Source of the DNA: Blastococcus sp. TML/M2B
GTDB taxonomy: Bacteria > Actinomycetota > Actinomycetes > Mycobacteriales > Geodermatophilaceae
DNA length: 64,000 nucleotides
Assembly (NCBI RefSeq): GCF_016612865.1
Contig: NZ_JAENZZ010000001.1
Location: 806,001-870,000 of the forward strand
Reading direction: 5' to 3'
Part shown: in pieces, positions 32,268 to 54,885 of the stretch
Numbering within the stretch: position 1 is the stretch's first letter
How the letters are laid out: every line of letters begins with the position of its first letter
Notes under the pieces: model-generated
The model's input: only the letters and a program-made list of their open reading frames with translations
What the model was told of the DNA's origin: nothing
Databases searched by the model: none
Position numbers and translations under genes: made by a program

Positions 32268-34673
32268 ATGGCGCGGCTGACGCTGCCGCAGCTGGAGCGG
32301 CACCTCTTCGCTGCGGCCGACGTACTGCGGGGCTCGATGGAGGCCTCCGCGTACAAGGAATACATCTTCGGCATGCTGTTCCTGAGGTACGCCTCAGATC
32401 AGTTCGAGGATGAGCGGCAGCAGGTGATCGCCGAGCAGCTGGCCCGCGGGCGATCACAGGCTGAGGCTGAACAGCGCGCCGAGTCGCCGTCCTTCTACAA
32501 GACCTTCTACGTCCCCGTCCGCGCGCGTTGGGAGCAGATCCGCGACCACGCACACCACAGTGTCGGCAGCGAGCTCAACAAGGCGCTTCAAGCGCTGGAG
32601 CATGAGAACCGGTCGCTGGACGGCGTTCTGCAGCACATCGACTTCACCCGCAAGGTCGGGCAGTCGTCGATGTCGGACAAGAAGCTGCGTGAACTGATCA
32701 TGCACTTCAACAAGGTTCCACTGCGCCAGAAGGACTTCGAGTTCCCTGACCTGCTCGGGGCCGCCTACGAGTACCTGATCCGCGACTTCGCGGACTCGGC
32801 CGGCAAGAAGGGCGGCGAGTTCTACACGCCCCGCGACGTCGTGCGGCTCATGGTTCAGATCGCCGATCCCCACGAGGGCATGAGCGTCTACGACCCCTGC
32901 ACTGGATCCGGCGGCATGCTGATCCTGTCCAAGGAGTACGTCGAGGAGAGCGGCGGCGACGGGCGCAACTTGGCCCTCGCCGGCCAGGAGCGCGACGGCA
33001 GCGTCTGGGCCATCTCCAAGATGAACATGCTTCTGCACGGCATTCCGGACGCCGATCTCCGCAACAACGACGACGGCACCCTGGAGGACCCAGCGCACAT
33101 CAGCGGGGGAGAGCTCCAGCGGTTCGACCGTGTGATCACCAACCCGCCGTTCTCGATGAACTACTCCGCCGAGGGGATCCCGTTTTCGGAGCGGTTCCGC
33201 TACGGCTACACGCCCGAGAAGGGCAAGAAGGCCGACCTGATGTTCGTCCAGCACATGCTGGCGGTCACGCGGTCTGGCGGCATGGTCACCACCGTCATGC
33301 CGCATGGTGTGCTCTTCCGCGGCGGCGACGAGGGCAAGATCCGCACGGGCTTCCTCGAGCATGACGTGATCGAGGCGGTGATCGGCCTCGGCCCGCAGCT
33401 CTTCTATGGCACGGGCATCCCGGCCTGCATCCTGGTGCTGCGTCCCGTCGGGTCCAAGCCTGCCGAGCGCGAGGACAAGGTGCTTTTCATCAACGCCGAC
33501 CGGGACTACCGCGAAGGCCGGGCCCAGAACTACCTTGAGCCCGAGCACGTCGAAAAGATCGTCTCGGCCTTCCGTGCCTTCGAGGACGTTCCCGGGTTCG
33601 CTCGCGTGGTCAGTCGCCAGGAGCTGGCTGATAACGACGACAACCTCAACATCCGTCGGTATGTCGACACCACGCCCGAGCCTGAGCCGCAGGACGTCCG
33701 GGCACATCTGCACGGCGGCATCCCGATCGCGGAGGTCCAGGCCAAGGCTGACCTGTTCGCCGCGCATGGCATGAAGCCGGAGCGCCTGCTCGTCCCCAAG
33801 GCAGAGGGATACCTGCAGTACGCCGACGTGGTGGCTGACCGGAGGGACCTGCGTCGCCTCGTTGAAAGCGACCCGGGTGTCGTCGCTGCCGAGGCGGCTG
33901 TGAAGACGGCGATCGAACGGTGGTGGAAGTACGAGGAGCCGCGCTTCGACAAACTGGAGACTGTCGCGGATCTTGTTGCGCTCCGTAAGGAACTGATCGG
34001 AACTTTCCGGTCGGCCCTGCAGGCGACGCCTCTTCTCGACCACTTCGCAGTCAGCGGCATCGTTGCCTCCTGGTGGGGCACAAGCCTGCCCGACCTCAAG
34101 GCCCTCGCCACCCTCGGCTACAAGGGGCTTGTCGAGGCCTGGGTGACCACCGTCCTCGATGCTCTCGAAGAGGACAAGGCCAAGGTCGACCCGCTCGACC
34201 ACAAGGCCGCCAAGGCCCTGCTCCCTGAGTACCTCGACCGGCTCGCCGCTCTGGAAGCCGAGGTGGCCGAACTCAACAGCACGATCAAGGCGGCCACTGC
34301 GTCTGATGACGAGGAAGAGGGAGACGGAGTAGCCGAGGAGGCCCTCTCGCCGACCGAGCTAAAGAAGCTGAAGAGCAAGCTGACGGCCGTAAAGAAGCAA
34401 CTCAAGTCGGAGAAGGTCGCCTTCGCCGACCGTCTCGCAGCAGCCAGCGCGGCGCTCGATGACACCGCCGCGCGCCAGATCGTCCTTGACGGCCTGGAAA
34501 GCGACCTGCTGGCAGAGGCCGAAGACCGCGTCGCCCGGCATCGCCGGGCGGTGATCTTAGCCTTCCAGGCGTGGTGGGATAAGTACCGGACGCCGCTGTC
34601 GGCGCTTGAAGCCGAGCGTGACGCGGCCGCCACGGCGCTTGCCGGATTTCTGAAAGAGCTTGGATATGAGTGA
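32268..34673 (+). CDS. hsdM: Type I restriction-modification methyltransferase subunit HsdM
   Basis: The product (801 aa) is an N6-adenine DNA methyltransferase of the type I HsdM family. The N-terminal helical HsdM_N domain ([19 protein letters not shown]) is followed by the catalytic domain with SAM motif DPCTGSGGM at 209-217 and motif IV NPPF at 292-295. A long C-terminal extension from about residue 470 includes a coiled-coil, Lys/Glu-rich region, longer than E. coli HsdM (529 aa) and similar to large HsdM proteins of actinobacteria. It methylates the recognition site when bound to HsdS. It overlaps hsdS by 8 bp. Confidence 0.96.
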
Positions 34674-35947
34674 CAACTCGACACCGAGCGACTGGCTTCA
34701 GTGTGAACTTGGAGAGCTTACTGAGATTATTCTCGGGGGGACGCCAAGTACGGAAGTCTCAGCCTTTTGGGGCGGAACTATTCCCTGGATGTCCTCAGGG
34801 GATGTCCACATGAAGATCATCGACGACGTGCCGGGACGCATCACCAAACTTGGACTCGAGTCGAGCAATGCTCGACTTGTCAGTCCGCCTACCGTCGCGG
34901 TCGCCCTCGCAGGTCAAGGGAAGACTCGGGGCACAGCTGCATTGGTGCAGGCTACGGTCAGCACTAATCAGTCGGTGGCGCTGCTCCGACCCATCGACGA
35001 GCGCCTCGATGCGAGGTTCCTGTATTTCAATCTTGATCATCGCTACGAGGAGTTGCGTAATCGCTCGATGGGTGGCGGCCGCGCTGGCCTTTCGGCCGGA
35101 GTGCTCACGAAGGTGCCGATTGCACTTCCCCCTCGCGATGCTCAGCGGCGAATTGCGGCGGTTCTGGATGCGCTCGATGCTGAGATCTCTTCCTTGCAGA
35201 GCATCATCGAGAAGCTGTCTGTCGTCAGGCTAGGCCTCCTCAGGGACCTGATGACGCGCGGAGTTGCGTCCACGGGGCGACTGAGGCCGTCGCCCCACCA
35301 GGACGCGGCGATATATGTCGACGGCGTCTACGGCTTACGGCCCAAGGCGTGGCGCGTTGGTTTGCTTGATCAATTCGCCAAGAGGGGTAGTGGTCACACA
35401 CCCAATAAGAATGTTCCATCATACTGGAACGGTGGCATCAAATGGGTCTCACTTGCCGACTCCTCCAAGCTGGACCGATTTCTTATAGAAGACACGCGAC
35501 AAACAGATAAGTCACACGGGAATTGCGAACTCATCGGCAGTGCTACACCCAGTTGGAACTGTTATCCTGAGCCGAGATGCCGGAGTGGGGAAGAGTGCGA
35601 TCCTTGCCGAAGGCATGGCCGTTAGTCAGCACTTCGTGGCTTGGCAGGCGGGGCGCGAACTGAACAACGTCTACCTGTACTACTGGCTACAGTTTATGAA
35701 GAGGGCATTTGAAGGGATTGCCCTTGGTAGTACGATTCAGACAATCGGTCTGCCGTATTTCCGCAAGCTGCACATCACCGTCCCGCCGCTTGAGGAGCAG
35801 GAGGAAATAGCTCACCGCATGCGTCTGGTCGATGTCGATCTAGATCGCACGCGCGATGAGTTGGCCGCGCTCAAATTGCTCAAGCAGGGGTTGGCTGCAG
35901 ACCTGTTATCCGGACGTGTTCGGGTGCCAGTCGGGGTGACCTCATGA
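34666..35947 (+). pseudogene. hsdS: Type I specificity subunit HsdS, frameshifted in second TRD
   Basis: Two target-recognition domains are visible. TRD1 starts DWLQCELGELTEIILGGTPST and ends in the conserved coiled-coil spacer (LPPRDAQRRIAAVLDALDAEI). TRD2 starts GSGHTPNKNVPSYWNGGIKW. Near 35506 the first frame goes wrong (TDKSHGNCEL); the next frame reads ISHTGIANSSAVLHPVGTVI, the normal family continuation, through LPPLEEQEEIAHRM to the end. Dropping the G at 35506 rebuilds about 427 codons. As read, the complex would lack half of its second recognition domain, so DNA specificity would change or be lost. ATG 34666 overlaps hsdM, and the stop overlaps hsdR (ATGA). Confidence 0.88.
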
Positions 35948-38900
35948 GCCTGGGCTCCGAGTACACGGAAGTCGAGAAGCCCCTGCTGGACCAACTGGCA
36001 GGTCTCGGCTGGGAGGTCATCGAGGGCTCCAAGTCAGATCCGTCGGTGACCGGGCGCGACTCCTTCCGTGGCTCACTGCTGGAGGAGCGGCTGCGCGCAG
36101 CCCTGCGCAAGATCAACGCAGGCCCTGGCGGCTCTCCATGGCTCGACGACTCGCGGCTCTCCGAGGCCGTCTCGTCCCTGACACGGTCTGAAGTAGGCAA
36201 GCTCATCGAGCTCAACGAGCGGATGACTGAACGCCTTCTTGAGGGCGTGTCTGTGGCAGGGCTTCCCGACTGGGACCAGGGGCGAACGCAGCGGATCAGG
36301 TTCATCGACTTCGAAGAGCCGGCCAACAACGACTTTCTGGCCATCAACCAGTTCCGGGTGGACGAGCCCGGCGGCCAGGCCAAGAAGTTCGTCGTCCCTG
36401 ACGTGGTGCTCTTCGTCAACGGCATCCCGCTGGTCGTGATCGAGTGCAAGAGCCCCTACGTCACTGACCCGATGGCCGAGGGAATCAACCAGCTCCGCCG
36501 CTACGCCAACCAGCGCGATTTGGGCGCGCCGGAGGGCAACGAGCAACTCTTCTGGACCAACCAGTTCGTCGTTTCCACGTACGGGGACAGGGCGCGGGTC
36601 GGCACCTTCACGGCAGGGGCCGAGCACTATTTGGAGTGGCGAGACAGCGCCCCCATGTCGCGTGACGATCTCGCCCAGTCGCTTGGCAAGCCCGTGTCGC
36701 AGTTGTCGGGTCAGGAGCTGCTGGTCGCCGGCATGCTGAGCCCAGCGAACTTGCTGGACATCGTTCGGCACTTCACGCTGTTCACGGAGGCCGGCGGCAA
36801 GCGCGTCAAGATCGTGGCGCGGTACCAGCAGTACCGCGCGGTCGGCCGGGCGCTGCCGCGACTGCGCACGGGCAAGACCCGGCAACAGGACGGCGAGAGC
36901 GACCGCCGCGGCGGCCTGATCTGGCACACCCAGGGCTCCGGGAAATCGCTCACCATGGTCTTTCTCGTCCGGGCGATGCGCTCGGATCCAGTGCTGCGGG
37001 CCTTCAAGGTCGTGGTCGTCACCGACCGCACCGACCTGGAAAAGCAGCTCGCCGAAACCGCGAAGCTCTCGGGCGAAGGCGTCGAGCGCGCCCGGAAAGC
37101 AAGCAAGCTCCGCAAGGTGCTGGCCGACAAGGGGCCGGCCCTAGTGTTCGCGATGATCCAGAAGTACCGCGACACCGACGTCCGGCAGGCCGATGGCACG
37201 GACGTCCAGCTCGCCGACGACGAGTCGCAGGAGTCTTTCGGTGTCCTGAACACCGACGAGACCATCGTGATCCTGGTCGACGAGGCGCACCGTTCCCAGA
37301 CCTCGACCCTGCACGCCAACCTCATGGCCGCGCTGCCCAACGCCGCCAAGATCGGCTTCACCGGTACGCCGATCATGCGCGAGGGCAAGAAGCGCACCAC
37401 AGCGATCTTCGGCGAGTTCATCGACAAGTACACGATCCGTCAGGCCGAGAGCGACGGCGCCGTCGTCCCGATCTTCTACGAAGGCCGCACGGCGAAGGGA
37501 GCCGTGGCCGGCGGCAGCGACCTCGATGAACTGTTCGAGGACATGTTCGACGAGCACACACCTGACGAGCTGGAGAAGCTCAAGGCCCGGTACGCCACGA
37601 CGGGCGCGGTCCTGGAAGCGCGGAAGCTGATCGCCGCCAAGGCCCGATCCATGCTGTGGCACTACGTCTCCACCGTCCTGCCAGGCGGCTTCAAGGCCCA
37701 GCTCGCGGCGACCAGCCGCCTGGCGACCGTGCGGTACCGCACCGCACTGCTCGCGGCCCGTGACGACCTCGTCGGTCAGATCAGCGCGCTACCCGACCAT
37801 CTCGTGGCCGGAGCATCCGACGGCAGCGTGGATATCGACGCGCTCGACCGCCGCACGCAGGTGCTGGTGCGGGCGCTGCCTTATCTCCCGCTCATCCGCG
37901 ACCTCGACTTCATCCCGGTGATCTCCGGCAGCCACAACGACGACCCGACGTGGGCGCAGTGGACGGACAAGGCACGCCAGGACGCCGTCATCGCCGACTT
38001 CAAGAACCCGCTCGGGCCGGCGGGGGAGCAGACCAGTCCCATTGCCTTCCTGATCGTGCGGACCATGCTGCTGACCGGGTTCGACGCCCCGGTCGAGCAG
38101 GCGCTCTATCTCGACCGCTTCATCCAGGACGCCGAACTGCTGCAAGCCATCGCCCGCGTCAATCGGACTGCTCCCGGCAAGCAGGCCGGGCTCCTCGTCG
38201 ACTACTTCGGGGTCGGTGCCCACCTGCAGCGGGCCCTGCAGGCGTACGCGCCGGAAGACGCCGAAGACGCGGTCGGCGCGTTGGCGTCCATCAAGGACGA
38301 AGTGCCGAAGCTGCGGGACCGGCACCACCGCGTGGTCGCCGTCTTCGCCCAGGCAGGCATCGAGACCTTCGATGCGGACGAGGACATCGAAGCGTGCGTC
38401 GCGGTGCTCGCCGATGAGGCGCTGCGTGCCCGCTTTGGTGTGCTGCTCAAGCAGTTCCTCAGCACCCTCGACACCGTCCTCCCGCGGCCGGAGGCGCTGC
38501 CCTTCGTGCTTGACGCCAAGCGGTTCGGGGTCATCCAGAAGGTGGCGCGCCGCCGCTACCGCGACGATGGGCTCGGCGACTTCGACCCATCCCTCTACGG
38601 CGAGAAGGTGCGCGCGCTCATCGATGAGCACGTCACCGCCCTGGGCATCGCCACCAAGATTCCTCCGGTGTCGGTGACCGATCCGGACTTCCTCGCCAAG
38701 GTCAAGGGCCTCACGTCAGCCAAGGCCAAGGCGTCGGAGATGGAACACGCGCTGCGGTTCCACATCAGGAAGAACTTTGACGAGGACCCGGCCCGTTACA
38801 CGAAGCTCTCCGAGCGGCTTGACGAGATCCTCAAGGGGCTCACGGGCAAGTGGGATGAGCTCACGCTCGCACTGGAAGAGCTGCTCAAAGACGCCACTGA

Positions 38901-39249
38901 CGAGGTCGATAAGGAGGCCGTCCACCACGATCCGCTGGTGGCTCGCTTCTACGGCCTGCTGGAGACCGAGCTCGCGACCAGCGCCGACTTGCCCGCCGAA
39001 GTCCGAGTCGACCTTGTCTACCTCTCTGAGCGGATCGTGGTCGAGGTCGTCGACCACGCTGGCATCGTGCGCTTCTGGCACAACCCGCATGCGCAAGACG
39101 ACCTGCGCAAGGAACTCATCCACGCCCTCGACGACCGCGATCTGTTCCCGTTCGAGGGACAGGCCGCGATCGCGGACCGCCTGATGGAGCTGGCCAAGGC
39201 CAATCAGGCATTGATCGCCGAGCGCGTCGGCGGCGGGAGGGCATCATGA
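35944..39249 (+). CDS. hsdR: Type I restriction endonuclease subunit HsdR
   Basis: The product (1101 aa) is the DNA-translocating, cutting subunit. The N-terminal PD-(D/E)xK nuclease shows Asp153 (VPDVVLFVNG) and Glu167-x-Lys169 (VIECKSP). Two RecA-like helicase domains follow, with Walker A QGSGKS at 330-335, DEAH at 446-449 and the downstream motif IGFTGTPI. A helical C-terminal part contacts HsdM/HsdS. All motifs needed for ATP-driven translocation and cutting are intact. It overlaps both neighbours by 4 bp within one operon. Confidence 0.96.
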   Translation: MSLGSEYTEVEKPLLDQLAGLGWEVIEGSKSDPSVTGRDSFRGSLLEERLRAALRKINAGPGGSPWLDDSRLSEAVSSLTRSEVGKLIELNERMTERLLEGVSVAGLPDWDQGRTQRIRFIDFEEPANNDFLAINQFRVDEPGGQAKKFVVPDVVLFVNGIPLVVIECKSPYVTDPMAEGINQLRRYANQRDLGAPEGNEQLFWTNQFVVSTYGDRARVGTFTAGAEHYLEWRDSAPMSRDDLAQSLGKPVSQLSGQELLVAGMLSPANLLDIVRHFTLFTEAGGKRVKIVARYQQYRAVGRALPRLRTGKTRQQDGESDRRGGLIWHTQGSGKSLTMVFLVRAMRSDPVLRAFKVVVVTDRTDLEKQLAETAKLSGEGVERARKASKLRKVLADKGPALVFAMIQKYRDTDVRQADGTDVQLADDESQESFGVLNTDETIVILVDEAHRSQTSTLHANLMAALPNAAKIGFTGTPIMREGKKRTTAIFGEFIDKYTIRQAESDGAVVPIFYEGRTAKGAVAGGSDLDELFEDMFDEHTPDELEKLKARYATTGAVLEARKLIAAKARSMLWHYVSTVLPGGFKAQLAATSRLATVRYRTALLAARDDLVGQISALPDHLVAGASDGSVDIDALDRRTQVLVRALPYLPLIRDLDFIPVISGSHNDDPTWAQWTDKARQDAVIADFKNPLGPAGEQTSPIAFLIVRTMLLTGFDAPVEQALYLDRFIQDAELLQAIARVNRTAPGKQAGLLVDYFGVGAHLQRALQAYAPEDAEDAVGALASIKDEVPKLRDRHHRVVAVFAQAGIETFDADEDIEACVAVLADEALRARFGVLLKQFLSTLDTVLPRPEALPFVLDAKRFGVIQKVARRRYRDDGLGDFDPSLYGEKVRALIDEHVTALGIATKIPPVSVTDPDFLAKVKGLTSAKAKASEMEHALRFHIRKNFDEDPARYTKLSERLDEILKGLTGKWDELTLALEELLKDATDEVDKEAVHHDPLVARFYGLLETELATSADLPAEVRVDLVYLSERIVVEVVDHAGIVRFWHNPHAQDDLRKELIHALDDRDLFPFEGQAAIADRLMELAKANQALIAERVGGGRAS

Positions 39250-39953
39250 ACGCGCTAGTCCTTCACCTCGATGGCATCCCGGTCCCGGTCGAGACCGCCG
39301 GGAGCAGCCGCAAGGCTCGGCTCACGGTCGAGGCAGACGGCTCGCTCAGCTTGCGAGCCCCCAGCGACGTGGCTCCCGACGAGCTCGAGCGGTTCCTGGT
39401 CTCCAAGCGGGCCTGGATTTACCGCAAGCTTTCGGAGAAGGAGGCCCTCCAACACGAGCCAATCACCAAGGAGATGGTGGACGGAGAGGGCTTCTCCTAC
39501 TTGGGCCGCAGCCACCGCCTGCAGCTCTCCGACGACGCGACGACTGTGCGGCTGGAGCGCGGGGGCCTGGTGCTTCCGCGGACGAAAGCCGACGCGGGCG
39601 CTGAGCCGATCATCGAGTGGTACCGCCGGCGAGGGGAGGCCTGGCTCAAGCCACGCACCCGGTCGTGGGCCGAACGGCTCCGGGTCGAGCCGGAGGGTAT
39701 CTCGGTGGCCGATCTCGGACGCAAGTGGGGGAGCGCCTCCGCTCACGGACGTGTGCGGCTGCATTGGGCGACCTTCCAGCTCCCACCGGCTCTGGTGGAC
39801 TACGTCCTCGTCCACGAGCTGGCCCACCTCCGAGAACCGCACCACGGACCGGCCTTCTGGCAGGTCCTCGCGCGGGCCATGCCGGACTACGACGGGAAGA
39901 AGGAAGAGCTAGCACAGCGCGGGGCACGCTTGTGGTTTGGAGAAACGCGATGA
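39246..39953 (+). CDS. YgjP/SprT-like M48-type metallopeptidase
   Basis: The product (235 aa) has the DUF45/YgjP layout: a beta-rich N-terminal half and a zinc protease half with HELAH at 190-194 (YVLVHELAHLREPHHGPAFW) and a third ligand in the following helix. The KWGSASAHGRVRLHWAT strand before it is typical. Proteins of this family are regularly encoded at the end of type I restriction operons; their job there is not established. It overlaps hsdR and the PHP-ATPase gene by 4 bp each, so it is made together with them. Confidence 0.93.
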   Translation: MNALVLHLDGIPVPVETAGSSRKARLTVEADGSLSLRAPSDVAPDELERFLVSKRAWIYRKLSEKEALQHEPITKEMVDGEGFSYLGRSHRLQLSDDATTVRLERGGLVLPRTKADAGAEPIIEWYRRRGEAWLKPRTRSWAERLRVEPEGISVADLGRKWGSASAHGRVRLHWATFQLPPALVDYVLVHELAHLREPHHGPAFWQVLARAMPDYDGKKEELAQRGARLWFGETR

Positions 39954-42574
39954 CCACAAGTCACAGCGCCGGCGCCCGGTGGATACGGGCCGCGTTGCAA
40001 GTGAATCCCTACGCCTACAACGGACGCGGGGCGCCGGCCAGCGCCTTCAGAAGTGAGAACGAGTACAACGACGCACTACTCGACCGATGCACTGCCGAAG
40101 GCATAGAACTCATCGCCATAACCGATCACTGGTGCGTCGATACTGCGCGATCACTGATCGATGCCGCGACAGCCCGCGACATAGTTGCGCTCCCGGGATT
40201 TGAAGCAAACTCAGCGGAAGGCGTCCACCTCCTGGTCATCTTTGAGGCGGGCACCGACTTCGCGGATATCAACGCTGCAATCGGGGTCTGCGGCGGCACG
40301 CCTGGTTGCGCTAACGGCACGGCAGGGGAGCCCTTCGCGGACATCCTGCGGAAGATGGGCGAGAGGGGTGCCCTGGTCATCCCGGCGCACGTCAATGTCG
40401 CGAACGCCGGCATGCTGACCGGCCGCTCGGGACCTCCGCTCGTCAACATGGTGACCCACCCCGATCTGCACGCCATCGCGGTCTCGCCGGACTCGTCAGC
40501 TGCGACCGACCAGGAAGCTGTCTGTGCCGGGCGCAAGCCCTACGACCGGGTGCACCCGCTCTCCGTCGTCTTCGCCGATGACGTCACGCACCCGAACGCC
40601 CTCGGCTCCAGAGGCGCGGCGACCTGGTTCAAGGTCAGTTCAACGCGCCTAGAGAACCTCAAGCTCGCGGTGCGGACACCCTCCACACGGATTGCGGTTG
40701 AAGATCCGCGATCTACTCCACGCCCCTTGGTCCGTCAGATTTCCTGGGTCGGCGGGTTCCTCGACGGCGTCACAGTCCCGCTGTCTCCCGACTTGACCGC
40801 ATTGATCGGCGGACGAGGGACGGGCAAGTCCACAGTAATCGAGAGCCTGCGCTATGTGCTGGGCGTGGATGCTCTGGGCGAGCAAGCCAAGCGTGACCAC
40901 ACGGCAATCGTGTCGGGCGTCTTGCGTTCCGGGACGACCGTAAGGCTCGAAGTCGAGACGACCTCGCCGGTCCCGCGGCGGTACACGATTGAGCGTTCCG
41001 TGCCGAACCTTCCAGTGGTTCGTGACGCCGCCGGATCGCACACGAATCTTCGCCCGGTCGACGTTATCGGCACAGTGGAAATATTCGGACAACACGAGTT
41101 GGCCGAGCTTGCGCACGACAAGGCGAGCGTCGCCCGCATGTTGGAGCGGTTCTCGGGCGCTACCGGTCCAGACGCAGAGCACGATCGGATCGTGGGTCAA
41201 CTCCGAGCGAACCGCGAAAAACTGCAGCGGGCAGAGATGGCTCGGGATGACTTGGAAGAAGAGCTCGCGGATATCCCGAGACTGGAAGAACATGTAGCGC
41301 ACTACACCGCCACGGACTTGCCCACTCGACTCTCGGAACTGCAGAGACTCGAGCGCGACTCGGGAGTATTCAGGGAGGCGACCGAGCGCGTCGCCAATGT
41401 GCGTACAGTCCTCCAGTCGCTCACGGACCAGCAGGTGGTGGATTCGCTAACGGCGCCCATCGACGCGATCGACGAGTCCCCGCAGAAGACAGTCTTGGAA
41501 AGGGTGACGGCCGCAACCCAGTCGCTGAGCGAGAAGCTCACTGAACTGCAGGCGTCGGCCGACGTGGCTGTGCAGGCGGCGGTTCAGGCGATCGAAACTG
41601 CCGAAGCGGAGTGGAAGCTTTCGACAGAATCTCAGCGGGCCGGCCATGCGGAGGTCCTCCGCAAGCTAGTTGAGGATGGCCACGATCCCGACAAGTACCT
41701 GGCCACAACAAAGGCGCTGGACACTCTCGAAGCCAAGGCGCAGCGGCGCGAGGGCATCGCCAGGACGCTCTCCGAGCTGTCGCGGCAGCGCGGCGAACTT
41801 CTAGAGGAGCTGGCTACCAACGAGACCAAGCGGTTAGACGACCTCCACGAGGCCATCAGGTCGGCGAACGCCGCCACGAAGGGGGTCGTGATAGTACGGC
41901 CGGTAGCGGCACCTGACCGTAAGCACATCAAGGCCGTGGTCGAGCGAGGAGTCAAGGGAGCTCGCACCCAGATAATGGCGGCGATTGACTCGGAGAATTT
42001 CTCACCGCGAGCCTTTGTGGCAGCGGCCCGGGTCAGCGGAGAGGAGCTTGACCAGAAGTTTAACGTCAAGGGCGCACAGGCGGCCAACCTCCTGGCTGCT
42101 GGGGAACCCTTGCTCCGGGAGCTCGAAGAACTGAGTGTCGGACAGGCGGTCGACGTCCGGCTCGACATAGCAGCAGGCTCGGGGCTACGCGAGTATCGAA
42201 GTCTTGACGATCTGTCGAAGGGTCAGCGCGCAACCGCGCTGCTGCTTCTGCTGCTAGGAGCATCGACTGCCCCCCTCGTAATCGACCAGCCGGAAGATGA
42301 CCTGGACAACCGGTTTGTGTACGACGGGATTGTGCAGAAGCTGCGGGAGCTGAAGGGAGCGCGGCAGATCATCGCCAGCACCCACAACGCCAACGTGCCG
42401 GTGCTTGGTGATGCCGAACTTATCGTGGCGCTGGAGGGGGACGGTCAACACGGGTGGCCCGCGGAGCAGGGTGTTGGCTCACTGGATGACGCCAAAATTC
42501 GTTCGCTCGCCGAGAACCTTCTTGAGGGAGGACCGACTGCCTTCAACGCACGCCAGCATCTCTACGGGTTCTGA
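39950..42574 (+). CDS. PHP-domain and SMC-like AAA ATPase protein (TrlF-like)
   Basis: The product (874 aa) joins an N-terminal PHP-type phosphoesterase domain (about 1-250) to an SMC/RecN-like ATPase. ITDHW at 57-61, VIPAHVN and DDVTHPN match PHP motifs II-IV, but the first motif, normally D-x-H-x-H, is ALQVN here. The ATPase has Walker A GGRGTGKST at 287-295, a long coiled-coil middle (about 400-640) and Walker B LVIDQPEDDLDN with a signature motif LSKGQRA. The order resembles TrlF-type PHP-ATPases. The 4-bp overlap with the metallopeptidase gene puts it in the type I operon, suggesting an accessory defence role. Confidence 0.85.
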   Translation: MTTSHSAGARWIRAALQVNPYAYNGRGAPASAFRSENEYNDALLDRCTAEGIELIAITDHWCVDTARSLIDAATARDIVALPGFEANSAEGVHLLVIFEAGTDFADINAAIGVCGGTPGCANGTAGEPFADILRKMGERGALVIPAHVNVANAGMLTGRSGPPLVNMVTHPDLHAIAVSPDSSAATDQEAVCAGRKPYDRVHPLSVVFADDVTHPNALGSRGAATWFKVSSTRLENLKLAVRTPSTRIAVEDPRSTPRPLVRQISWVGGFLDGVTVPLSPDLTALIGGRGTGKSTVIESLRYVLGVDALGEQAKRDHTAIVSGVLRSGTTVRLEVETTSPVPRRYTIERSVPNLPVVRDAAGSHTNLRPVDVIGTVEIFGQHELAELAHDKASVARMLERFSGATGPDAEHDRIVGQLRANREKLQRAEMARDDLEEELADIPRLEEHVAHYTATDLPTRLSELQRLERDSGVFREATERVANVRTVLQSLTDQQVVDSLTAPIDAIDESPQKTVLERVTAATQSLSEKLTELQASADVAVQAAVQAIETAEAEWKLSTESQRAGHAEVLRKLVEDGHDPDKYLATTKALDTLEAKAQRREGIARTLSELSRQRGELLEELATNETKRLDDLHEAIRSANAATKGVVIVRPVAAPDRKHIKAVVERGVKGARTQIMAAIDSENFSPRAFVAAARVSGEELDQKFNVKGAQAANLLAAGEPLLRELEELSVGQAVDVRLDIAAGSGLREYRSLDDLSKGQRATALLLLLLGASTAPLVIDQPEDDLDNRFVYDGIVQKLRELKGARQIIASTHNANVPVLGDAELIVALEGDGQHGWPAEQGVGSLDDAKIRSLAENLLEGGPTAFNARQHLYGF

Positions 42575-42707: not shown

Positions 42708-44813
42708 ATGAAAGCAACTGAAGCCTCCCTCCTGCAGTTCCTCAAGAAGTCACCGCAGTTTGTTATCCCGATCTACCAGCGGACGTACAGCTGGCGGCGC
42801 GACGAGTGCTTGCAGCTGTGGGCGGACATTCTGCGGGCCGGGCGGGAGGACAGCGTCAACGCCCACTTCGTCGGATCGGTGGTTTACGTCGAGCAGGGGC
42901 TGTACCAGGTGTCCAGCCAGTCGCCGCTACTCGTCATCGACGGGCAGCAGCGCCTAACGACCGTGACGCTGCTGCTCGAGGCGCTGGCGCGGCACCTCGG
43001 CGACGACGAGCCGGTGGAGGGCTTCTCGGCCCGGAAGCTGCGCAGCTACTACCTGCTCAACCCGCTCGAGGACGGCGACAAGGCCTTCAAGTTGCTGCTG
43101 ACGCAGACCGACCGGGACAGCCTGACGGCGCTCGTCCAGCAGCGGCCGCTGCCGGAGAGGGGCTCGCTGCGCATCGCGCAGAACTTCGAGCTGTTCGACG
43201 AGCAGGTCACGGCTCTCAAGGGCGACTTGGCGCCGCTCTGCCGCGGGCTGGCCAAGCTGGTCATCGTCGACGTCTCGCTCAATCGCGCTCAGGACAACCC
43301 GCAGCTCATCTTCGAGAGTATGAACTCGACCGGCCGCGAGCTCAGCCAGGCCGACCTGATTCGCAACTACGTGCTCATGGGGCTGGAGCCGCAGCACCAA
43401 ACCGAGCTGTATGAGCGGCACTGGCGCCCAATGGAGCTCGGCTTCGGCCAGGAGGGCTACGGCGCCCACTTCGACTCCTTCATGCGCCATTACCTGACGG
43501 TCAAGACCGGCGACATCCCGAACGTGCGAGCCGTCTACGACGCCTTCAAGGCCTACGCCCGGCCGGTCATCGACCAGGCCGGCGTCGATGCACTCGTGGC
43601 AGACGTCCACGCCTACGCCGGCTACTACTGCGCCATGGCCCTGAAGCGCGAGGACAACAGGGACCTCGCCGCAGCGTTCGCGGACTTGCGCGACCTCAAG
43701 GTCGACGTCGCCTACCCGCTGCTGCTCGAGCTGTACCGCGACTACGCCACCGACGTGTTGGCACGCGACGACTTCGTCAAGGCGCTGCGCCTCGTCGAGG
43801 CCTATGTCTTCCGGCGGGCAGTCTGCGCCATCCCGACCAACTCGCTAAACAAGACCTTCGCCACCTTCGGCCGGTCGCTCAAGAAGGACCGTTACCTGGA
43901 GAGCATTGAGGCCGCGTTCCTGCTGCTGCCGTCGTACCGGCGCTTCCCGGGCGACGAGGAGTTCCAGCGGGAGCTCGTCAGCCGCGACCTGTACAACCAG
44001 CCGCGCCGCTCCTACTGGCTGCGCCGGCTGGAGAACCACGGCCGTAAGGAACGTGTCATCGTTGACGAGTACACAATCGAGCACATCATGCCGCAGAACG
44101 ACAATCTGTCAGAGGCGTGGCGGCAGGCGCTCGGGCTGGACTGGGAGCGCATTCACGCCGCCAAACTGCACACCCTCGGCAACCTGACGCTCACTGGCTA
44201 CAACAGCGAGTACAGCGACCGACCCTTCGGCGAGAAGCGCGACATGGCGGGCGGCTTCAAGCACAGCCCGCTTCGTCTCAACGAGGGGCTCGGCGCTGTC
44301 GAGCGCTGGGACGAGGCCGCAATCGACGCCCGGGCCGCCCGCCTGGCAGAGCGGGCGACGACCGTCTGGGGTCAGCCGGCGCTGGAGGAAGGCGTGCTCG
44401 CCGCCTACCGTCCGAAGGCGGCCGCCGGGGAGTCCCGCTACAGCTTGGACGATCACCCGCAGCTGGCGCCTGGCCGGGCGATGCGACCGCTGTTCGAGCA
44501 GCTCCGCAGCGCCTTGCTGGGGCTGGATCCGAACGTCACCGAGGAAGTCCTCAAGCTGTACATCGCCTACAAGGCTGAGACCAACGTGGTCGACGTCGTG
44601 CCGCAGGCGTCCCGGCTGCGGCTGTCGCTCAACATGCCCTTCCCGGCGCTCAACGATCCGAAGGGCATCGCTAAGGACGTCACCAATCTTGGTCGCTGGG
44701 GCAATGGCGATGTCGAGGTCGGCCTCGCTCATGCCGACGACATCCCGTACGTCCTCGGCCTGGCGCGGCAGGCCCTGGAGCGCCAATTCGGTAGCGAGAC
44801 CGAGGCAGCCTGA
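42708..44813 (+). CDS. DUF262/DUF1524 (GmrSD-like) nuclease protein
   Basis: The product (701 aa) has an N-terminal DUF262 (ParB/sulfiredoxin-like) domain with IPIYQRTYSWRRDECLQLW and the DGQQR motif at 78-82. A helical middle follows, then a DUF1524 HNH-type domain with E458-H459-I-M-P-Q and LGNLTLTGYNSEYSDRPFGEKR, and a C-terminal DUF5655-like segment. Fused GmrS-GmrD proteins of this kind use nucleotide hydrolysis to find and cut modified phage DNA (type IV restriction). A 133-bp gap with a TACAAAT box separates it from the type I operon, so it likely has its own promoter. It overlaps the next gene by one base (TGATG). Confidence 0.93.
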   Translation: MKATEASLLQFLKKSPQFVIPIYQRTYSWRRDECLQLWADILRAGREDSVNAHFVGSVVYVEQGLYQVSSQSPLLVIDGQQRLTTVTLLLEALARHLGDDEPVEGFSARKLRSYYLLNPLEDGDKAFKLLLTQTDRDSLTALVQQRPLPERGSLRIAQNFELFDEQVTALKGDLAPLCRGLAKLVIVDVSLNRAQDNPQLIFESMNSTGRELSQADLIRNYVLMGLEPQHQTELYERHWRPMELGFGQEGYGAHFDSFMRHYLTVKTGDIPNVRAVYDAFKAYARPVIDQAGVDALVADVHAYAGYYCAMALKREDNRDLAAAFADLRDLKVDVAYPLLLELYRDYATDVLARDDFVKALRLVEAYVFRRAVCAIPTNSLNKTFATFGRSLKKDRYLESIEAAFLLLPSYRRFPGDEEFQRELVSRDLYNQPRRSYWLRRLENHGRKERVIVDEYTIEHIMPQNDNLSEAWRQALGLDWERIHAAKLHTLGNLTLTGYNSEYSDRPFGEKRDMAGGFKHSPLRLNEGLGAVERWDEAAIDARAARLAERATTVWGQPALEEGVLAAYRPKAAAGESRYSLDDHPQLAPGRAMRPLFEQLRSALLGLDPNVTEEVLKLYIAYKAETNVVDVVPQASRLRLSLNMPFPALNDPKGIAKDVTNLGRWGNGDVEVGLAHADDIPYVLGLARQALERQFGSETEAA

Positions 44814-47092
44814 TGACGACCGCGCGGCGCCCGGACAGTCCCCTGTTTGAGCAGGCCATGCGTTTGCGGGCGGAGGGCTTGTTCAGCCTGCCGGCGGTCG
44901 TGGCCAGGGCACGGGAGGCGGGCCCGGTCTTCTGGCGGGACGTGGCCGCGCTCGCGCCGTACGAGCGGTCGGCAGTCGCCCGGCCAACCCACGTCCTTGA
45001 CTTCCTCGGGCAGCTCACCCGGCGGCTGGCACCGGGCTCGGTGCTCGACCCCTACGCCACCTCTCCTTTGCCTCTGGCGGCGGTCGCTGAGGCCGTCCCC
45101 GGCGCACGCCTCGTCGCGGCAGCTGCCGATCCCGCCGTCCGGGACATCGGGGCGGCCCTGACGCCGTCGGCTGACTGGTCGCTTGATCCGGAGGCGTTGT
45201 TTGAGCGCACGCAGGGTCAGACCTTCGACGTGGTGCTGCTGTCGCCGCCGCTCGGTATGCGGGCACGGCCAGCCCAGCTGCCGGCGCTACCGGCGCTGTC
45301 CCGCCCGGAGCTGGCGGACTACGCCCTGCTGCGTTCGCTCGACCGGGCCGCCCCCGGCGGCCGAATCATCTATCACTGCGCCGACAATCTGTTCTGGGGT
45401 GGAGAGGGGCAGGTGCTCGCGGCCTGCGCAGAGCGCGGCTGGCATCTGACGGCCGCCATCTCCGTCGACCGAGGCTTCTGGCCGACCACTTCACTTCAGT
45501 CGTCGATTGCCGTTTTTGAGGCGCAGCCGACCGAGCAGCTCTTCGTCGCCCGGCTTGACGAGCGCACCGCCACGGCGGCGCTCGTGGCCAATCTGCTGGC
45601 TCGGCGGCCGGATACGGTCAATTTCCACCTCGGGCTGCTCACTGACCGCAGCTACCGCAGCTGGCAGACCCTGGTGGTGCAGCGTGAGCTTGCAGACGCC
45701 TTCCGTGCCGACGAGCTCATCGCGCTCGCGACCGTGGGTAGGTTGCGCGCCGTCACGCTGCGCGCCAACCGCGACTACGAGCCACCTGACAACGCCGTCT
45801 TCGTCCCCGGCATCGGCATGGGCGACGTCACGACGTACCCGCCGACCTATGAGGGACGCAGCGGATACCGCTTGCTGGAGGTGCAGCTCGACCCGGATCG
45901 CGCCCGCGCCGAATACGTCGCCGCGCTGCTGTCCAGTCCGATTGGCAAGCGCCTGCGCGAAGTCTCATCCCGCGGATCGACGCTGCCGCATGTTGACCTT
46001 GCCGCGCTGTCCTCCGTTCGCATCCCGCTCCCGTCGCTGATCGCCCAGCAAGAGGCCATTGCAGCGGCCGGCCACCTCGCCAGCATGGAGGCCACTGTCG
46101 AGCGGCTGCGCAGCGACTTGTGGCGCCGCCCGGAGAAGGCGAAGCGCGTCGTCGAGCAGCTCGAGCAGGCCGCGCGGCTTGACCCGGTCCGCCGCTGGCT
46201 CGAGTCGATGCCGTACCCGCTGGCGTCCGTCCTGCAGCGGTACGTCGCGCTGCGCGACCCGGAAGCGCGCGTGCAGAGCCTCGTCAACTTCTTCGAAGCC
46301 ATGGCGCAGTTCGGCTGCGCCGTGCTCCTCAGCGTCTTCCGAGCCGACGATGTCCTCTTCCAGCAGGTACAGGCTGACCTCGCTAAGGCAGCCCCACCGG
46401 GGCGCCAGCTGTTTGACCGCGCCGACTTTGGGCTGTGGCGCAATCTCGGCACGACGCTGGCAAAGAATGTCCGCCGGCTGGCTGGCGATAAGGAGCATCA
46501 GGAGGCGTTCGAAGCGGCGAGCGGACCGGCCGGAGTGCTGATCGAACGGCTGGCTGACAAGCGCTTTTGGGCGCTGCTGGACCGCGCGCGGGTAGTCCGC
46601 AATCAACGGTCCCACGGCGGCGTCGTCTCGCCTGAACAGCTGTCGGGGTGGCTATCTGGGTTGGAGTCGCTGCTGAGCGACGTTGAGCAGGCGCTCGGTA
46701 CGGCCTTTGAGGACGTTGATCTGGCCTTGGCCGCGGAAGGTCGCTACCGGCACGGCCTGTACACCTACCACCAGGCTGAGCGGCTCCGCGGGCCGAGTGC
46801 CATCTTCCAGCAGTTCGAGGTCCAGACCCGTCAGCCGCTGGAAAGCGACCACCTCACGTTCGTGTCGCGGGATGCGGCCGTGAGTCCTGTGCTTCATCTG
46901 GTGCCGCTCGTCCGTGTCGGGCCGACCCCGCGCAGCGCCAACAACGCCTGCTACTTCTTCGAGTCGCGGCAGGGCGGAGCCATCTCGTACGTGTCATACC
47001 ACTTCGAAGGTGAGCCGCGCGTTGAGCTGCACGACGATGACCTCGAGGACTTGGCGCGGCAGGTCGCCGGTCAGCCGGACGCTCCCGCATGA
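44813..47092 (+). CDS. Fusion protein: degenerate N6-methyltransferase, HsdS-like recognition segment, HEPN-type RNase motif
   Basis: The product (759 aa) has no clear single family. Residues about 1-260 follow the N6-adenine methyltransferase fold, but the SAM motif is D79-P-Y-A (DPYATSP instead of DPxxGxGG) and motif IV is S144-P-P-L instead of NPPF/Y. Residues about 325-440 look like one HsdS half: a recognition segment (NAVFVPGIGMGDVTTYP), then LPHVDLAALSSVRIPLPSL and a helix. Residues about 560-640 form a helical unit with R596-N-Q-R-S-H601, the R-N-x3-H signature of HEPN ribonucleases. A beta-rich C-terminus follows (YFFESR, SYHFEGE). It probably recognises DNA without methylating it and may cut RNA. 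Start ATG overlaps the DUF262 stop by one base. Confidence 0.8.
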   Translation: MTTARRPDSPLFEQAMRLRAEGLFSLPAVVARAREAGPVFWRDVAALAPYERSAVARPTHVLDFLGQLTRRLAPGSVLDPYATSPLPLAAVAEAVPGARLVAAAADPAVRDIGAALTPSADWSLDPEALFERTQGQTFDVVLLSPPLGMRARPAQLPALPALSRPELADYALLRSLDRAAPGGRIIYHCADNLFWGGEGQVLAACAERGWHLTAAISVDRGFWPTTSLQSSIAVFEAQPTEQLFVARLDERTATAALVANLLARRPDTVNFHLGLLTDRSYRSWQTLVVQRELADAFRADELIALATVGRLRAVTLRANRDYEPPDNAVFVPGIGMGDVTTYPPTYEGRSGYRLLEVQLDPDRARAEYVAALLSSPIGKRLREVSSRGSTLPHVDLAALSSVRIPLPSLIAQQEAIAAAGHLASMEATVERLRSDLWRRPEKAKRVVEQLEQAARLDPVRRWLESMPYPLASVLQRYVALRDPEARVQSLVNFFEAMAQFGCAVLLSVFRADDVLFQQVQADLAKAAPPGRQLFDRADFGLWRNLGTTLAKNVRRLAGDKEHQEAFEAASGPAGVLIERLADKRFWALLDRARVVRNQRSHGGVVSPEQLSGWLSGLESLLSDVEQALGTAFEDVDLALAAEGRYRHGLYTYHQAERLRGPSAIFQQFEVQTRQPLESDHLTFVSRDAAVSPVLHLVPLVRVGPTPRSANNACYFFESRQGGAISYVSYHFEGEPRVELHDDDLEDLARQVAGQPDAPA

Positions 47093-48318: not shown

Positions 48319-49248
48319 AGCGTGTCTGCTAACTGCGGACCCGGTGGTGGATGATCATGCAGGCGAGGAGGACGCCGCCCAGGTAGGTGGTGGCGTACTT
48401 GTCGTATCGGGTGGCGATGGCGCGCCACTGCTTGAGCCGGCCGAAGCCGCGTTCGACGGTGTTGCGGTCCTTGTAGCGCTCCGGATCGCAGGCAGGTGGC
48501 CGGCCTCCGGCCGAGCCCTTCGCCTTGCGGCGGGCGATCTGGTCGCTGCGTTCGGGAATGGTGTGAGCGATCCTTTTCGCCCGTAGGTGCGCCCGGGTGC
48601 TGGGGTGGGAGTACGCCTTGTCGGCCAGCAGCCGGAAGGCGCCGGTGTCGCCGCGGTCGTGGGCTTCCAACAGCGGGATCAGCTGCGGGTTGTCACCGGC
48701 CTGGCCCGGTGAGAGCAGCACCGTCAGCGGGCAGCAGTACCGGTCGGTCAGCGCGTGGATCTTGGTGCTCAGCCCGCCGCGGGAACGACCCAGAGCGTGA
48801 TCGGCGGGCTCGTTGGTCAGGTTCTTGTCATTCGACAGGGCCCCCTGTGTGGCCCTCGTGCCGCGCGCCGGCGGAGTGCTGATGGGCACGGGCGATGGTC
48901 GAGTCGACCGACAACAGGCTGCGCAGCTGCTCGTCGCGCTCGGGGGCTGCGGCGCGAACCGCGGCGAACATGCGCAGGTAGGTGCCGTCGTCAGACCACC
49001 GACGGTGGCGCTCCCACACCGACTGCCAGGCCCCGAAGTGCTCGGGCAGGTCACGCCACGGCGACCCCGTGCGAAACCTCCAACTGATCCCCTCCAGCGT
49101 CAGCCGGTGGTCATTCCACGGCCGCCCTTGATGGCCGCCTGCCGGCAGCACCGGCTCGATCAGCTCCCACAACTCGTCTGGAATCTCGTCCGCGCGCAGC
49201 ATTCGTCGAGCGTCGCCTGCGAACCCTCAGATCTTTGGCAGACACGCT
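48319..49248 (-). mobile_element. IS5-family insertion sequence (about 930 bp)
   Basis: The terminal inverted repeats are AGCGTGTCTGCTAA (left) and AGCGTGTCTGCCAA (right, read inward), 13 of 14 matching. Both ends are flanked by CTAG (48315-48318 and 49249-49252), a 4-bp YTAR target duplication typical of IS5-type elements. Two overlapping reading frames encode the transposase. The element looks complete. Confidence 0.93.
48329..49202 (-). CDS. IS5-family DDE transposase, two-frame (orfA/orfB)
   Basis: orfA (48828-49202, 124 codons) has the DUF4096-type start DEIPDELWELIEPVLPAGG and the first catalytic Asp in LLSVDSTIARAHQHSAG. orfB (48329 to about 48880) continues with HALGRSRGGLSTKIHALTD, the second Asp in RLLADKAYSHP and the Glu in VERGFGRLKQWRAIATRYDK. 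The frames overlap at a G/C slip region (CAGGGGGCCC on the coding strand), the usual place for programmed frameshifting in this IS group, so a single fusion protein is expected. The catalytic triad is complete. Confidence 0.92.
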
Positions 49249-51709: not shown

Positions 51710-52119
51710 ACTGCGGGGGAGGGCACATGCCTTCTGAAGCACGAGTTCCAGAGCTCGCGCGCGATTCCACGAGCCATGCCATGGTGAGGAGTTGTGCCCC
51801 CGACTCTCACAGTTCGAGCTCTATCCACTCGATGCCTCCCGAGCATGATGGTGCGAGTCAGGCCACAGCCAGCTTGCAGGCAATGGTCGATCGGGTTCCT
51901 GAAGGCTGGACCGTCGTCGCATACGAAGGTCGCTCATACGGATTGACCCGTACCACGCGAGTGCATGGCCAGAGCATCAGCATCTCGGCCGAGGAGCTAG
52001 GAGGGGACGACCTGATCAGCGCCAACGTGTACCGCACTCGCAAAGCAGAGCACCTACGGCCCTGTGAGGTATCCGAAGCCAAGGTGCTGGCATTCCTGCG
52101 CGGATGGACGCCCGCATGA
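51706..52119 (+). CDS. Small conserved actinobacterial protein, function unknown
   Basis: The product (137 aa from GTG 51706, or 130 from ATG 51727) has a disordered Ser/Pro-rich first half and a compact second half: [20 protein letters not shown], then [22 protein letters not shown] and [11 protein letters not shown]. The compact part reads like a conserved alpha/beta domain seen as a stand-alone protein in many actinobacteria. It is co-oriented with and overlaps the TetR gene and precedes mshC by 82 bp. No reaction can be assigned. Confidence 0.7.
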
Positions 52120-52201
52120 GCCCTCGCGACACTCTGTCAGCAGGATCAGGAATCCACGCCGAATCCTCTGGTGTGGCTTCATCGACTACGAGGACCACGA
52201 C

Positions 52202-53440
52202 ATGTTGGCATGGCCCCGTCTAGAGATTCCACGCTTGGATGTACACGGGCCCGCAGTCTCGGTCTATGACACTGAGAACCGATCCTTGGTGACGTTGCCG
52301 CCGAATGACGCCGCGCGGATGTACGTCTGCGGCATCACACCCTACGACTCCACTCATCTCGGCCATGCGGCAACCTACGTCGGCTTTGACCTACTCAACC
52401 GCGCCCTTCGAAACGCCGGGCACGATGTCATCTATGTTCAGAACGTCACCGACATCGATGACCCGCTGCTGGAACGCGCCCACGCGCGAGGCATTCCCTG
52501 GAGTGATCTCGCACAACGCGAGACCGAGCGATTCCGACAGGACATGACAGCCTTACGCGTCCTGCCACCCGCACACTTCGTCGGAGTCTCCGAGGCCGTC
52601 ACCAAGATCATCTCTCGCATCGAGATGTTGAAGGAGCGCGGCTCTATCTACCGAGTGGGAACCGACCTCTACTTCGAGGTGTCTGCCGACCCATCCTTCG
52701 GCCGCGTATCGTCACTCGACCGCGATGTGATGTTGAAGGACTTCGCCGAGCGTGGCGGTGACCCCGATCGGAGAGGCAAGCGCGACCCGCTCGACTGCCT
52801 GGTTTGGCGCGGCGAGCGGCAAGGGGAGCCGTCCTGGCCCAGTCCGTGGGGGCCGGGACGACCCGGTTGGCACATCGGATGCACCACAATCGCCCAGGAA
52901 CATCTGGGATCATCCTTCGACGTACAGGGCGGAGGACGAGACCTGGCATTCCCGCACCACGAGATGTCCGCAGGACTCGGTCATGTCATTCATCCACAGC
53001 ATCGGTTCGCGCAGACCTTCGTCCATGCCGGGATGGTTGCGTACGACGGCGAGAAGATGTCGAAGTCGCGCGGAAACCTGGTCTTCGTCTCCTCTCTGCG
53101 AAAGCAAGGAGTGGACCCTGCGGCCATCCGCCTCGCCCTCATGCGGCACCACTATCGATCAAGCTGGGAGTGGACAGACGCCGAAATCTCGGCCGCACTC
53201 GACACATTGAAGCAGTGGCGTCGTGCCCTGGCTCTCGGTAGCGGGGCGCCGGCAGCACCGGTCGAGCAGGCCGTGCTCTCGGCACTAGCCGCCGACCTTG
53301 ACGCTCCGGCCGCAGTCACCATTTTGCAGGAGTGGGTTGACGCCTCGCTTGGTACCGACACAGTGGCAGACAAGCGAGACAGCTCTGCCCCTATGACGGT
53401 TCGACGTCTGGCGGACGCCTCACTCGGTCTCTTGCTCTGA
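52202..53440 (+). CDS. mshC: Mycothiol cysteine ligase MshC
   Basis: The product (412 aa) joins cysteine to GlcN-inositol in mycothiol synthesis and is a relative of cysteinyl-tRNA synthetase. The MshC-specific start [20 protein letters not shown] includes the HIGH-like motif and the zinc Cys. [13 protein letters not shown], the zinc-site segment WHIGCTTIA with FPHHEM, and the KMSKS loop ([10 protein letters not shown]) are intact. The length matches MshC rather than CysS. ATG 52202 ([12 protein letters not shown]) matches the usual N-terminus. The gene sits on the mobile element, so it is probably a second copy that reinforces mycothiol production. Confidence 0.9.
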
Positions 53441-53487
53441 TCGGATCACCCCGGAACGGAAGTATTCGACCATCGTGCACGAGTTGG

Positions 53488-54885
53488 CTACGCCTGCGTC
53501 CAGGTGGTGCCTGAGGTGTGGTCCTGGATGGCGATCCCAGCGCTAGCCAGTTCGTTCCGGATGCGGTCGGCGGTGGAGAAATCTCCTGCGTCCCGCGCAT
53601 GAGAGCGATTCGCGAGTAGAACCTCGACGAGGGTAGAGATCGTGCTGCCATGAACGTCGGCTCGCGGGGCGGTCGTGAAGCCGCCGGGCTCGATCCCTAA
53701 CACTTCGGTCATCGCGAGCACCGATTCGTACGTAGACATGGCGGCAGCTGGATCGCCGTTATCCAGAGCGATGTTGCCCGCGCGCACGTGGTCGTGCAGG
53801 ACTGCGAGCGCCGCTGGGACATTCAGGTCGTCGTCGAGCGCGGCCGCGAAGGCAATGGGCGGCGTCGGGGCGTCGGATGCTGTGTTCGCGAGTCGTGTGC
53901 GTGCTCGGTGCTGGAACGTCGCGATTCTCGTGACTGCAGCCTCGGTGTGCGTGAGATCCTTCTCCTGATAGTCCAAGGCACTGCGGTAGTGCGCGCTGAG
54001 CAGGTAGTAACGCAGCGTCGCCGGGCCGACACGGCGGAGGAGTTCATCGGCATACAGAGAGTTGTTCAGCGACTTGGCCATCTTCTGCCCGTCGATCGTG
54101 ACGAGGCCGTTGTGTATCCAGTACTTGGCGAACTCGTCGCCTGCTGCGGTGGACTGGGCAAGCTCGTTCTCATGGTGCGGGAATCGCAGGTCGAGGCCGC
54201 CTCCGTGGATGTCGAACGCACGTCCGAGGTAGTGCTGGGACATCGCTGAGCACTGTATGTGCCATCCCGGCCTGCCGGTTCCCCACGGTGAGCGCCAACG
54301 CGCGGATTCTGGGTCGCTGGGCTTGGCTCCCTTCCAAAGCGCGAAGTCGCGGGGATCGATCTTTGCCCCGCCAGGCCCTTTATCAGGGTCCGCTACGGCG
54401 CCGGGGGTCTGCCTGGTGAGCTTGCCGTATGCCCGCCAGCTGCTGACATCGAAGTAGACGTCGCCGGAGCCGTCGCTGGCGACGTAGGCGTGTCCGCGGC
54501 GAAGGAGTCGTTCGATCAGGGTCAGTGCCTGCGGGATGTGACCGGAAGTTCGGGGCTCATGGGTTGGCGGGAGAACACCCAGCGCGGCGTACGAGCGCGC
54601 GAACTCCGTCTCGACACGGTAGGCGCGTGCCCACCATGGTTCAGTCTCGGTTGCCAGGTCCAGAACCTTGTCGTCGACGTCGGTGACGTTGCGAACGAGG
54701 GTGACCGCGTAGCCGCGGTGGGTGAGCCAGCGTCGCCAGAGATCGTAGACGAGGGCGCTACGAAGGTGCCCGATGTGAGGCGCGGACTGCACGGTTGGCC
54801 CGCACACATAGATTGAGACTCGTCCTGGGTTCAGCGGGACGAAGTTGCGTAGCTTCCGGACAGCACTGTCGTAGATGCGAAGCAT
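53488..54885 (-). CDS. cysS: Cysteinyl-tRNA synthetase
   Basis: The product (465 aa) charges tRNA-Cys. It has YVCGPTVQSAPHIGHLRSA (zinc Cys and HIGH motif), NVTDVDDKVLD, WHIQCSAMS and FPHHENELAQS (zinc site), the KMSKS variant KMAKS, and a C-terminal DALR-like anticodon region. Length is normal. It converges with mshC (47-bp gap), so the two related cysteine-activating enzymes face each other on the element. Likely an extra copy beside the housekeeping gene, perhaps tolerant to oxidised or electrophile-stressed cysteine pools (inference). Confidence 0.95.
   Translation of the reverse strand: MLRIYDSAVRKLRNFVPLNPGRVSIYVCGPTVQSAPHIGHLRSALVYDLWRRWLTHRGYAVTLVRNVTDVDDKVLDLATETEPWWARAYRVETEFARSYAALGVLPPTHEPRTSGHIPQALTLIERLLRRGHAYVASDGSGDVYFDVSSWRAYGKLTRQTPGAVADPDKGPGGAKIDPRDFALWKGAKPSDPESARWRSPWGTGRPGWHIQCSAMSQHYLGRAFDIHGGGLDLRFPHHENELAQSTAAGDEFAKYWIHNGLVTIDGQKMAKSLNNSLYADELLRRVGPATLRYYLLSAHYRSALDYQEKDLTHTEAAVTRIATFQHRARTRLANTASDAPTPPIAFAAALDDDLNVPAALAVLHDHVRAGNIALDNGDPAAAMSTYESVLAMTEVLGIEPGGFTTAPRADVHGSTISTLVEVLLANRSHARDAGDFSTADRIRNELASAGIAIQDHTSGTTWTQA

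Follow-up and report, generated by a model that had tools for sequence, protein, structure and literature searches.

PrrC, an HEPN RNase whose gene resides in a type I restriction-modification (R-M) operon (that of the type IC system EcoprrI), has been described as a second line of defense once restriction fails (PMC3710099, PMC3874165). In BREX-related and Hma systems, which are methylase-bearing defenses, HEPN is fused to a core part, the DUF499 ATPase (PMC12839542), while PARIS is reported to be fired by the anti-restriction protein Ocr and not to need a type I system (PMC9122126). According to a 2013 survey of HEPN domains, the fusion partners of those linked to R-M are nucleases, helicases and ATPases, "not to the methylases", and the HEPN-M row of its table lists DUF86 HEPN domains as occasionally fused to methylases (PMC3710099). 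Two half-HsdS copies can stand in for a whole HsdS and then read a symmetrical site, as described for EcoR124INT (PMC2877798). Here we describe a protein encoded in a 64,000-nucleotide window (the whole stretch of DNA analyzed) from Blastococcus sp. TML/M2B. It joins a degenerate HsdM-like methylase, a half-HsdS and a probable HEPN RNase domain in one chain, and it belongs to a rare family.

PrrC, DUF499-HEPN and PARIS are the closest known systems, and none has a methylase/half-S/HEPN chain. Among the papers listed for HEPN with type I restriction, methylases or target recognition, no title or opening of an abstract names such a chain, in agreement with the original prediction, which knew of no named system with this domain order. 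As with PrrC, the HEPN gene occurs in type I operons, immediately downstream of hsdR at 12 of the 21 loci with upstream sequence; PrrC, however, has an ABC-type NTPase and neither methylase nor half-S, and the window protein, lacking any NTPase match (Pfam and NCBIfam, E ≤ 1), is not a member of that family. HEPN is N-terminal on the ATPase in DUF499-HEPN; here a methylase/half-S chain carries it at the C-terminus. PARIS (AriA/AriB) would be similar only in how it works, through an abortive response triggered by Ocr; it is built from ATPase and DUF4435 proteins, neither of which is detected in the window protein (Pfam, E ≤ 1). The DUF86 fusions also differ, as no Pfam DUF86 match was found in 18 family members and the HEPN-M row mentions no half-S. 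The HsdM fold and the half-S principle are shared with EcoR124I HsdM and EcoR124INT, but the window protein is one chain with lost motifs and an added HEPN domain, and its pairing is putative.

The complete open reading frame (ORF; 44813..47092, + strand) encodes 759 amino acids, along which the predicted order of methyltransferase-like, HsdS-like and HEPN parts was confirmed. On this strand follow a degenerate HsdM-like Rossmann methyltransferase domain (residues 1–263; 44813..45601), a half-HsdS comprising one target recognition domain (TRD)-like segment and a helical spacer (residues 301–455; 45713..46177), an HEPN-like helical bundle (residues 456–634; 46178..46714), and a conserved, beta-rich C-terminal tail (residues 635–759; 46715..47089). 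The full predicted model is poor at residues 267–309, 384–404 and 700–759, and we therefore make no claim on the tail. Neither Pfam nor NCBIfam matches the window protein above a curated cutoff, and the best 25 of its 37 PADLOC matches are weak models of R-M and MADS parts only. MADS membership was rejected on score (MAD5, 14.8 bits versus a cutoff of 400), as was BREX PglX on structure (Foldseek rows with a template modelling (TM) score ≤ 0.19).

The N-terminal part has the HsdM Rossmann fold: the family profile matches EcoR124II HsdM (E 4e-21), and 16 of 18 family members match Pfam N6_Mtase at E ≤ 1. Foldseek of the whole model returns 7eew_A first (E 1e-8), an entry titled as the intact methyltransferase (MTase) of Vibrio vulnificus YJ016 with Ocr. 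Fitting this structure (VIA) across both parts gives a root-mean-square deviation of 22 Å, and the secure match is to the methylase part only. As far as the model goes, this is a likeness to an Ocr-binding methylase and does not imply that the window protein binds Ocr. Gamma-class N6 methyltransferases have a motif I of the form DPxxGxG. Their motif IV has the form NPP(Y/F/W) (PMC3874165). At these positions the window protein has D79-PYATSP (45047..45067; DPxxGxG in the main clade of the family) and S144-PPL (45242..45253; NPPF/Y in the partner HsdM), correctly read beforehand as degenerate. Because both motifs differ, its sequence marks it as HsdM-derived rather than as an HsdM.

The half-HsdS assignment is based on PADLOC Specificity_I (E 8e-6 at residues 324–452) and Pfam Methylase_S (E 0.0047, below cutoff), and the predicted model has long helices at residues 409–455. 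A single TRD-like segment, at about residues 301–455, is present instead of the two TRDs with spacers of HsdS. With motifs lost and only one TRD, identification as an ordinary HsdM or HsdS was discarded.

An arginine followed by a polar residue, in the pattern R-x(4-6)-H, defines the HEPN signature (PMC3710099). In the window protein it reads R596-N-Q-R-S-H601 (46598..46615), as had been proposed, and all 22 family loci have it in the form R-N-x(3-4)-H-x-G. In the predicted model the signature lies at the end of helix 583–601, ahead of the last core helix (607–628), and upstream, in helix 483–511, there is a nearly invariant acidic residue, E495 (E or D). The top structural matches of the region are to HEPN domains of the RNA-binding protein Roquin and are of middling quality; Foldseek of the HEPN part against the PDB and BFVD gave no match below E 0.001. 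No HEPN profile was matched in a PDB profile search or in PADLOC, and none clearly in Pfam; the weak profile matches are Pfam HEPN_Swt1 in 1 of 18 members (E 0.2) and PADLOC Cas12d in 2 of 16 (E 0.028). Based on the invariant motif, its position relative to the helices and the middling structural match, residues 456–634 are probably an HEPN RNase domain. The observations that the original prediction had named as fatal to itself were not encountered: the model is HEPN-like, the Arg/His pair is retained at all 22 loci, and a named system with the same order did not turn up.

The family comprises 22 distinct loci (numbered with the prefix L), and every taxonomically assigned one is from the Actinomycetota. 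Eighteen, all from this phylum, were found by scanning genome contigs with a profile of a C-terminal three-row alignment (A2), while a whole-protein scan of the same collection returned zero relatives. A whole-protein search of plasmids gave four records, one from Gordonia and three from Streptomyces, with about 28–29% identity across half the length. To these eighteen the count adds the window, Gordonia L003, the Streptomyces plasmid locus L004 (L005 is the same protein) and L031 from an order search; L029 and L030 are identical to L018 and L021, and each was counted once. The contig of L007 starts within the family gene. The 19-row alignment omits L003 and L011 (split frames), L005 and the later find L031; in these four, the HEPN motif and motif IV were examined outside the alignment. 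In the Gordonia plasmid copy (L003:10780-13299) an in-frame stop splits the gene, and both pieces are otherwise conserved.

The gene is single-copy in its own genome. Searches with profile A4 at the order level matched 4 of 396 genomes (the central genome included) and 1 of 391 (the central genome itself). At the phylum level, A2 matched 1 of 396, the genome of origin, and the whole protein 2 of 396; since these searches score few first-look candidates per genome, all four counts are lower bounds. The second whole-protein match (L002), a 470-amino acid ORF with an intact NPPY, covers residues 38–196 only. Viral contigs contained no family member detectable with A2 or A4; a query with the relative P0001 instead of the window protein matched 5 of 50,697 phage records, all on the methylase part. 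The tree groups the window protein with that of Modestobacter altitudinis (L006; 58% identity, support 100/100); its other branches are a main clade and a clade of Streptomyces/Nocardiopsis sequences.

The methylase motifs follow these branches. Motif I is DPYATSP in the window and of the form DPYVTSP in L006, DPACGSA in the Streptomyces clade (DPACGFA in L022), and DPxxGxG in the main clade, so that 13 of 18 aligned relatives (13 of 19 rows with the window counted) have it intact. Motif IV is SPPL in the window, GPPI in L006, and EIPY in four aligned rows of the Streptomyces clade; the 13 main-clade rows have DAPW (10), DSPW (1), DAPL (1) or DPPW (1). The partner HsdM proteins have DPxxGxG and NPP(F/Y) in 12 of the 12 checked, including the window's (those of L008 and L031 are outside this set). 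The window protein and L006 have thus lost both motifs, and their identity is 44% in the methylase, 57% in the linker, 58% in the half-S, 74% in HEPN and 63% in the tail. Motif loss together with the difference between 44% and 74% indicates, as judged from the alignment, that in this branch the methylase is eroding while HEPN is held. The main clade, in contrast, may have a live methylase. The suggestion that the protein acts without methylating therefore suits the window copy and L006, but less so the main clade, where DPxxGxG is kept and motif IV is mostly DAPW.

An hsdR on the same strand immediately precedes the gene in L003, L006, L009, L014, L015, L016, L017, L018, L020, L021, L023 and L031, or 12 of the 21 loci with upstream sequence (L007 has none). 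In L015 only the end of hsdR is present, 83% identical to that of L016. In L013, two ORFs of opposite orientation intervene between hsdMSR and the gene; in L008 the type I genes are encoded on the opposite strand; and none were seen in the available flanks of L004, L010, L011, L012, L019 and L022. In the window, three genes separate hsdR from the HEPN-fusion gene. Its type I operon, on the + strand, comprises hsdM with intact motifs (DPCTGSG and NPPF; 32268..34673), hsdS (34660..35625), and hsdR (35944..39249; TIGR00348, 422.9 bits, cutoff 284.55), the first two recognized from translation by eye and likeness to other loci. The hsdS is frame-broken near its second half: across 34660-35940, the first 321 amino acids are in one frame and the rest in another.

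Across 10 loci, the distances of HsdM correlate strongly with those of HsdR (r 0.99), whereas those of the family protein correlate weakly with HsdM and HsdR (0.63 and 0.61; 0.40 and 0.43 without L006, p about 0.1). Co-inheritance with hsdR as a sign of direct binding was accordingly dropped, the correlation resting largely on L006. Between L017 and L016, HsdM is 28%, HsdR 24% and the family protein 68% identical, and comparison of L017 with the other main-clade loci gives 27–28%, 22–24% and 62–69%, respectively. These identities indicate that the gene is an add-on that accompanies unrelated type I systems.

Across L016, L018, L020 and L021, HsdM is 81–93%, HsdR 84–92% and HsdS 34–65% identical, while the family half-S is 73–85% identical, indicating at the sequence level that it does not track the specificity of the partner HsdS. 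Because it is conserved where the partner HsdS varies, if it reads a DNA site at all, that site would be nearly fixed rather than the operon's own. In the same loci the TRD core is 67–82%, the methylase 85–87% and HEPN 87–92% identical; the half-S being the least conserved, a slow change in its recognition is possible.

Based on the unrelated partners, the non-tracking half-S and the lost motifs, a sensor mimicking the methylase core fits better than a reader of the partner's site or a binder of a single partner, and we think it reasonably probable that the protein is an R-M-linked HEPN RNase with such a sensor. Its N-terminal part would be a copy of the methylase core of a type I system (HsdM plus half HsdS), with the methylase motifs lost in the window branch, and the remaining chain would hold the C-terminal HEPN RNase silent. 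The half-S helices would pair two chains, allowing two HEPN domains to meet. The trigger would most likely be type I restriction failing or being blocked. In the version we favor, a DNA-mimic anti-restriction protein of the Ocr or ArdA type would bind the methylase/half-S part as a decoy and free the HEPN pair, which would cut cellular RNA; the phage would be halted and the infected cell may die. Binding of Ocr and ArdA has been described for a type I methylase that is non-canonical, and both reportedly inhibit the classical enzymes (PMC9613975). This choice of trigger is tentative, and so, to the same degree, is the view of the dead methylase core plus HEPN as a decoy receptor, a bait for DNA-mimic phage or plasmid proteins whose binding fires the RNase. 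A decoy would fit mobility between operons, because it need not match the partner enzyme. We infer RNase activity, pairing of chains, silence at rest and a trigger, and with them a role in abortive infection. The best explanation for the whole, an R-M-linked suicide RNase with a methylase/half-S sensor, has in our estimate an even chance of being correct.

The conserved half-S would also permit a one-chain guard, in which a fixed DNA site that is unmethylated on incoming DNA switches the RNase on and the main-clade methylase (DPxxGxG, DAPW) marks the host copy. The intact motif I in 13 of 19 aligned proteins, DAPW in 10 and DPPW in one, the N6_Mtase matches in 16 of 18, and some copies' lack of type I genes in the available flank all favor this, but the window protein and L006, with motifs I and IV gone, could not mark the host site themselves, and partner HsdS proteins that vary are unlikely protectors of one fixed site; we regard this guard as rather unlikely. 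Less likely still is a latency like that of PrrC, which is reported to be retained in the type I complex (PMC3710099, PMC3874165): the protein would be silenced by binding the neighboring intact complex and freed once that complex is disabled. The fourth-gene position immediately behind hsdR (12 of 21 loci; genes overlapping by 4 bases in L015, L021 and L023) suggests such a tie, but the family accompanies HsdM and HsdR that are just 22–28% identical (L017 versus other main-clade loci) and includes copies whose available flank has no type I genes. Moreover, the window hsdS is broken and the HEPN-fusion gene intact, a combination that this latency would make lethal, provided that the break is not an error in the sequence. 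A non-catalytic subunit, as the HsdM-like fold and the Roquin matches might suggest, is improbable given the invariance of R-N-x(3-4)-H-x-G in 22 of 22 loci, which a catalytic HEPN predicts, the copies that lack type I genes in the available flank, and the loss of motifs I and IV in the window copy.

The three genes between hsdR and the HEPN-fusion gene, all on the + strand, encode a YgjP-like metallopeptidase (39246..39953; Pfam), a TrlF family ATPase with PHP and SMC-like parts (39953..42574; NCBIfam NF045780, 445.7 bits, cutoff 350), and a protein with GmrSD_N, GmrSD_C and DUF5655 (42708..44813), whose top PADLOC match is 'Orf5' (638.6 bits). The start of the HEPN-fusion gene overlaps the stop of this GmrSD-type gene (ATGA). 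Upstream, an integrase-like ORF (28725-30707; translation by eye) contains a tRNA-Ala on the opposite strand (29409-29483), which suggests an attachment site and an integrated island with defense genes. Transposase-like frames lie next to the HEPN-fusion gene on the minus strand, as two overlapping pieces (48329-49202). Two cysteinyl-tRNA-synthetase-like ORFs are placed end to end on opposite strands (52064-54885); both assignments are from translation by eye. Among other family loci, an AAA_5/EVE protein and a McrBC-family protein (McrB- and McrC-like) are encoded directly downstream in L007 (L007:2740-6690), a possible link to McrBC. Downstream of the family gene in L012 is a pair consisting of an OLD-type ATPase/TOPRIM protein and a UvrD helicase (L012:12266-16042), which we take to resemble Gabija.

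An HEPN RNase as a second line behind restriction is already known; in this family, the probable RNase is carried on a methylase/half-S chain, and unrelated type I operons often have it as their fourth gene. If the decoy proposal is correct, the bait would mimic the methylase core in general, so that one decoy could guard unrelated type I systems and move among them as a plug-in fourth gene. The window branch would then be the most specialized, having shed methylation altogether, and the family would give bacteria a portable means to punish anti-restriction proteins.
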